Shown here in pieces: positions 1,321-1,496 of a stretch of DNA of 63,758 bases. Under the pieces are notes generated by a model. That model was not told the DNA's origin. It saw nothing but the letters and a program-made list of their open reading frames with translations, and did not search any database. Position 1 is the first letter of the stretch. Every line of letters begins with the position of its first letter. Where the stretch lies: the NCBI GenBank assembly GCA_020848745.1, contig JADLHM010000047.1, forward strand, positions 1 through 63,758, written 5' to 3'. This DNA comes from Deltaproteobacteria bacterium. GTDB lineage: Bacteria > Desulfobacterota > Binatia > UTPRO1. Both the position numbers and the translations under genes were made by a program.

Positions 1321-1356
1321 AAAAACCCCCTCCGGCCGGGCAGCGGGAGAGGGTTT
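1321..1356 (-). terminator. Rho-independent terminator between leader peptide and leuA
   Basis: On the minus strand an 11-base arm (AAACCCTCTCC, 1346-1356) pairs with GGAGGGGGTTT (1323-1333), with one T-G pair and a GC-rich loop, followed by a T run. It lies after the leader peptide stop and 72 bases before the leuA start, the position expected of an attenuator terminator. The stem and T tract are read directly. Regulation by leucine is inferred. Confidence 0.85.
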
Positions 1357-1382
1357 GCAGAGACGCGCGTTCTAACGCGGGC

Positions 1383-1457
1383 TCAAGGCTCCACCGCCAC
1401 GGGCTCGACTAGCCCTAGGAGTAGGCCGAGAAGCAGCGTGTGCGCTCGCGACGTCAT
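1383..1457 (-). CDS. leuL: leucine leader peptide (24 aa), attenuator of leuA
   Basis: A short frame ATG (1457) to TGA (1383) encodes 24 residues containing LLLGLLLGL, seven leucines in nine codons. Three of the seven are CTA, a codon that is rare in this GC-rich sequence. It is followed by an intrinsic terminator and then leuA. This is the classical arrangement in which stalling of ribosomes at leucine codons controls read-through. An AAGGA motif precedes the ATG. It is too short to be called by length, but the leucine run directly upstream of leuA makes chance unlikely. Confidence 0.82.
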   Translation of the reverse strand: MTSRAHTLLLGLLLGLVEPVAVEP

Positions 1458-1467
1458 GGTGCGTCCT

Positions 1468-1496
1468 TCTTATGCGAGCCGCGCGCGCGGGGTCAA
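1468..1496 (-). promoter_or_regulatory. candidate promoter of the leuL-leuA transcript
   Basis: On the minus strand TTGACC (1491-1496) lies 16 bases from CATAAG (1469-1474), or 17 bases from ATAAGA (1468-1473). The predicted start of transcription would fall only about 4-6 bases before the leader ATG, giving a nearly leaderless message. This is a consensus match by eye only. Confidence 0.45.

Follow-up and report, generated by a model that had tools for sequence, protein, structure and literature searches.

In the attenuators of gammaproteobacterial leuABCD and ilv operons (leuL of E. coli and Salmonella), a short leader ORF carries a run of Leu codons, rare ones among them, and an antiterminator competes with an intrinsic terminator upstream of leuA. 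The leader described here resembles gammaproteobacterial leuL (RF00512) in its Leu run with rare codons, in a predicted antiterminator alternative to the terminator, and in having leuA as the next gene, but differs from it in sequence, which is unrelated and has no Rfam match, in a candidate transcription start almost at the ATG, and in the type-2 LeuA encoded downstream. Leader-peptide attenuators have been described in Proteobacteria, Actinobacteria and Firmicutes (PMC2965389; PMC5794164). In Staphylococcus aureus, the ilv-leu operon is preceded by a Leu-rich attenuator peptide and a terminator, and its leucine response has been measured (PMC5794164); the leader studied here has the same two parts and its leucine response is inferred, whereas the S. 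aureus leader belongs to a different phylum, has a different sequence and, jointly with CodY, governs the entire ilv-leu operon. The actinobacterial leuA carries a LEU element, in which the Leu codons pair with the leuA Shine-Dalgarno sequence, parts of a classical attenuator are missing, and mutation data are at odds with classical attenuation (PMC1262725). This element likewise has a short ORF with a run of Leu codons before a type-2 leuA, but our leader has an intrinsic terminator and a putative antiterminator, and here a strong terminator stands between the Leu codons and the leuA Shine-Dalgarno sequence. Of the two precedents named in an earlier reading of the sequence alone, the actinobacterial one is therefore weak. 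Finally, the trpL attenuator of Sinorhizobium meliloti is transcribed from the ATG of its leader ORF (PMC7298713), close to the start proposed here, although it responds to tryptophan, precedes trpE(G) and belongs to Alphaproteobacteria.

A search of Rfam with the window (the whole 63,758-nt stretch that was analysed), the related loci and the leader alone returned no match apart from two chance-level hits to other families (E about 4); thus, neither the Leu_leader covariance model (RF00512, at its gathering score) nor a T-box model recognises the leader. We found no description of a leucine attenuator for this lineage in the literature, as the sequence-only reading had also stated, but with subscription papers mostly beyond reach this absence is weak evidence.

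Leucine-rich leader and terminator upstream of leuA

On the minus strand of the window, a 24-codon ORF, a terminator hairpin and leuA follow one another (Table 1); the limits 1321-1496 given for the leader by the sequence-only reading are correct. The downstream gene makes the amino acid for whose codons the leader is rich, namely, it encodes 2-isopropylmalate synthase according to NCBIfam. The remainder of this leuA is found at one end of a second contig from that assembly, with the C-terminal LeuA dimer domain on G000:C9. In L125, a SAM-dependent methyltransferase gene (7653-8417) overlaps the end of type-2 leuA by 4 nt and is a probable operon partner.

Table 1. Features of the leuA leader region (window positions)
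Feature	Position	Strand	Basis
Candidate -35 box, TTGACC	1491..1496	-	sequence; kept in G001 and G004
Candidate -10 box, CATAAG, 16 nt from the -35 box	1469..1474	-	sequence; CATA kept in G001 and G004
Leader-peptide ORF, MTSRAHTLLLGLLLGLVEPVAVEP (ATG 1457, TGA 1385-1383)	1383..1457	-	orthologous leaders in G001 and G004
Regulatory Leu codons, CTG CTT CTC GGC CTA CTC CTA GGG CTA	1410..1436	-	
Region 2, antiterminator strand, GCGGUGGAG	1389..1397	-	folding with ribosome masking; position kept in G001 and G004
Region 3, antiterminator partner overlapping the terminator 5' arm, CUCUCCCGC	1343..1351	-	folding with ribosome masking
Intrinsic terminator (5' arm 1356-1346, 3' arm 1333-1323, U run 1325-1321)	1321..1356	-	nearly identical in G001 and G004
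leuA Shine-Dalgarno sequence, GGAGG	1257..1261	-	sequence
leuA, type-2 2-isopropylmalate synthase (ATG at 1248), interrupted by the contig end	1..1248	-	NCBIfam PRK03739 subfamily and leuA_yeast

Seven of the 24 leader residues are Leu, and three of these seven codons are CTA. The rarity of CTA relative to CTC and CTG, which had been claimed for the genome, is borne out by the six clear genes of the window, where the 247 Leu codons comprise 160 CTC, 71 CTG, 9 CTT, 4 TTG, 3 CTA and no TTA; at these frequencies, three or more CTA among seven Leu codons would arise by chance with p = 6e-5. Moreover, the leader is the sole short ORF in the window with at least six Leu in nine residues, and no such ORF occurs in four Markov-shuffled windows. 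Since short ORFs are frequent in GC-rich DNA, the ORF might be fortuitous and the hairpin might simply terminate an upstream transcript. We consider this highly improbable: the ORF is unique in the window and missing from the shuffles, no gene of its strand directly precedes it (the neighbour, 1537-1863, has the opposite orientation), and the conservation of the element between genera already disfavours it.

The terminator stem (1356-1323, AAACCCUCUCC / GGAGGGGGUUU) has a folding energy of about -18 kcal/mol, in agreement with the strong intrinsic terminator that had been noted between the peptide and leuA. It was not listed by a simple scanner, because its U run partly pairs with the AAA of the 5' arm. 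Upstream, the candidate promoter pair likewise scored below the threshold of the scanner, but its conservation in G004 (see below) supports it. If used, this promoter would start transcription about 5 nt 5' of the leader ATG and would leave an SD-like AAGGA outside the RNA, consistent with the nearly leaderless transcript suggested earlier.

Orthologous leaders on type-2 leuA genes

Type-2 leuA is rare in the class, being found in 8 of 148 genomes. We compared the leuA upstream regions of relatives, and those of G001 (same genus as the window's genome, G000) and G004 (another genus of the same family; LeuA 83% identical) retain the Leu run, the terminator and the antiterminator. Both show the same arrangement, namely, a TTGAC box, CATA some 16-17 nt further on, an ATG a few bases later, a Leu-bearing peptide (MTSRAHALLLGLLLGLREPVAVEP in G001 and MNIRPRTTIRTVGLALRLALTRAEEA in G004), and a terminator almost the same as that of the window (AACCCTCTCCCGC...CCGGCCGGAGGGGGTTTTT). 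In G004 the central part of the leader is different, yet CTACNCCTAG is retained, its two CTA codons in unchanged positions. Hence, across three genomes and two genera, the promoter, the Leu codons, the pairing of region 2 with region 3 and the terminator are kept while the rest of the leader diverges. These are the only three orthologous leaders known, two of them very close to each other.

No such leader was found when the upstream regions of the type-2 leuA genes of G003, G016, G035, G117 and G017 were compared. In the protein tree, LeuA of G000, G001 and G004 form one clade (support 100/97), which stands beside proteobacterial LeuA at weak support (67/62), and the type-2 LeuA of G003, G016, G035 and G117 are nested in Actinomycetota (99/94). 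On this placement, there were probably two or more acquisitions of type-2 leuA in the class, with the leader on the first lineage only. In G017 (C303, 12031-13169) the gene is split into two matches (residues 5-241 and 273-415) and is perhaps a damaged copy.

Type-2 leuA is also preceded by Leu-rich leader ORFs in Rhodospirillales, Desulfobulbales-type bacteria, and Nitrospirales and Deferribacteres MAGs (L042, L044, L049, L069, L080, L087, L090 and L116). For several of them, transcription would begin at or very near the ATG, and those of Rhodospirillales have Leu peptides with no obvious T-tract terminator.

Folding of the leader RNA by ribosome position

At equilibrium, the full-length leader RNA always prefers the terminator, so the whole-leader fold is uninformative and any antiterminator must act kinetically, which is normal for attenuators. 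We therefore repeated the folding on a transcript halted just before region 4, the strand that pairs with region 3 in the terminator, with the A site of the ribosome placed on a given codon and 12 nt downstream of it covered. For every one of the seven Leu codons as ribosome position, the mean probability that region 3 pairs with upstream sequence is 0.63-0.72 in both G000 and G001. One codon after the last Leu this pairing falls to 0.41 in G000 and 0.03 in G001, two codons after it to below 0.1 in both, and at the stop codon, which lies 3 nt beyond region 2, it is about 0.27 in both. The G004 values are 0.83-0.87 for three of its four Leu codons and 0.32 for the stop codon.

The pairing behind this switch joins GCGGUGGAG to CUCUCCCGC in the window leader, with one mismatch and one G-U, and has A-U in G001 where G000 has G-U; in G004 it joins GGCGGAAGAGG to CCUCUCCCGCC. 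The region 2 strand thus differs among the genomes (GCGGUGGAG in G000, GCGGUAGAG in G001 and GCGGAAGAG in G004), and each variant is able to pair. When the spacer was shuffled, the swing was matched or exceeded in 10.7% (G000), 5.6% (G001) and 2.1% (G004) of cases, and accordingly the swing of the window leader is suggestive, not significant. Exposure of the antiterminator at the Leu codons and its masking at the stop are nevertheless found by folding in all three genomes, with weak significance for the window alone and with support from the larger set of 71 leaders described next.

Leucine leaders on type-1 leuA genes across the class

We examined 104 upstream regions of type-1 leuA from 16 families of the same class. 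Of these 104, 70 hold a short ORF in which four or more of six successive residues are Leu, compared with 20 of 520 shuffled sequences. What looked like Leu leaders in f2, f12 and f17 (YTLSGPLLW...) turned out to be the C-terminus of an upstream pssA-like gene; removal of four such C-termini leaves at least 66 of 104. Examples of these leaders are MNALSLLLLGLALGLLLSSPPAALARA, MYCNLLPELLLSLALTGAHARRASGQV and MTSRNDITTLASLLLRCPSGASAVV, and by eye many have a TTGACA-like promoter ending a few bases 5' of the ATG. Among the type-1 upstream regions (L009-L030 and L129-L205), there is one group in which CCCGUCCGUGG in the leader can be matched with CCACGGGCGGG before the terminator in 11 pairs, one of them G-U.

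In 71 leaders for which terminators were located automatically, the window's three included, the mean antiterminator pairing is 0.72 at the Leu codons and 0.26 at the stop. The level of 5% or less in shuffles is reached by 33 of the 71, a figure that is not a joint p-value because the leaders are related to one another and each is represented by its best Leu codon.

Covariation was sought as well. The window's own set is too small for this, and the evidence comes from the type-1 leaders of the sister family f9 (29 sequences), in which UGGGCC of the terminator loop is the partner of the region 2 strand, GGCCCA. In this antiterminator 94% of cells are paired, A-U is replaced by G-C and U-A, and there are 6 double-sided changes against 1.0 in shuffles; in the terminator 98% are paired, with 16 double-sided changes against 1.6. 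Each covariation score was reached by 0 of 500 shuffles, and slid pairings fail. Conservation is seen in the three orthologues, and covariation in the f9 type-1 leaders only.

These results bear on a leucine attenuator that would work without an antiterminator, for instance through ribosome-coupled Rho or pausing, with the intrinsic terminator as a fixed brake. Such a device would fit the unexceptional score of the window's own region 2:3 pairing against shuffles, as well as the Rhodospirillales type-2 leaders mentioned above. However, G004 retains this pairing in register with 10 of 11 pairs, the computed switching boundary coincides exactly with the Leu codons, and the f9 antiterminator covaries, so that we regard a device of this kind as unlikely.

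A scan of 395 genomes of the phylum with the core pattern of the leader gave matches in three genomes of the class and in one outside it, and for this reason our claim for the element is confined to the class.

Valine-rich leaders before ilvB, and the resident type-1 leuA

In G000, ilvB (contig 90, L207) is preceded by MYPAHHDQFAFRSVAVVVVVVVSVVEAGAS, a Val-rich leader (VAVVVVVVVSVV), and by a terminator ending in CGGGGGTTTCGTTTTTCTGG. The Val run and the terminator are also kept before ilvB in G001, G002 and G004 (L218, L219 and L221), and the leader is a probable valine attenuator. Leader-peptide attenuation of branched-chain synthesis thus looks like a habit of the family rather than an isolated case. 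A Trp leader before trpE was not found in G000.

The valine leaders also help to judge whether the window ORF belongs instead to a gene for a small hydrophobic peptide or an sRNA that ends at its own terminator and has no part in controlling leuA. Its Leu stretch is like a short hydrophobic helix of a membrane or signal peptide, a terminated RNA of about 140 nt would result, and the hairpin might also mark the 3' end of a short RNA that is not translated. Yet the G004 peptide (MNIRPRTTIRTVGLALRLALTRAEEA) retains the Leu codons and not the hydrophobicity, CTA is strongly over-represented, in the class Leu leaders stand before leuA genes of two unrelated types, and ilvB has Val leaders. A role apart from leuA is, in our judgement, very unlikely.

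The type-1 leuA of the window's family (f1), and of f2, f12 and f17, has no Leu leader; in f1 the Leu leader stands on the acquired type-2 leuA instead. Nearly all genomes examined in these four families keep a well-conserved terminator (CTCCCG...CGGGAG-T(n)) upstream of type-1 leuA, mostly directly after the pssA-like gene. Such a terminator, CTCCCGYTGG...CGCGGGAG-T(n), in type-1 upstream regions (L121-L123, L127, L128, L025, L179-L195 and L206) is a possible attenuator or processing site. At the DNA level, the G004 leader resembles the leaders of Rhodospirillales (Rhodospira/Roseospira) and of f9 (31-54 and 5 per 1000 codon shuffles, respectively), and the window leader resembles neither. 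We tentatively suggest that Leu attenuation was ancestral in the class on type-1 leuA and that in the window's lineage it may have passed to a type-2 leuA gained by horizontal transfer, which either arrived with its leader or took over the resident leader design, the resident gene losing its Leu peptide and keeping its terminator.

A model for the proposed attenuation of leuA

The conserved parts, the folding logic and the f9 covariation support leader-peptide attenuation of leuA by leucine, as the sequence-only reading had proposed, and the Leu leaders on type-1 leuA and the Val leaders on ilvB back it independently; we assign a probability of about 0.86 to the element being a classical ribosome-mediated transcription attenuator of type-2 leuA. 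For the window leader, we infer promoter use, ribosome stalling and a leucine response as follows. RNA polymerase would start near the leader ATG and a ribosome would translate the 24-codon peptide. When charged Leu-tRNA is scarce, the ribosome would stall at one of the seven Leu codons (three are the rare CTA), leaving region 2 (GCGGUGGAG) free to pair with region 3 (CUCUCCCGC), so that no terminator would form and leuA would be transcribed. With ample leucine, the ribosome would reach the TGA and cover region 2, region 3 would pair with region 4, and transcription would end. If the leader were not translated, region 1 (the Leu codons) would tend to pair with region 2, which should favour the terminator too.

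While the mechanism is long known, what is new is its conservation across a bacterial class for which we found no description of it. The class supplies about 70 comparable leaders and two independent types of leuA, and its gene replacement offers a setting for tracing how attenuators are gained and lost.
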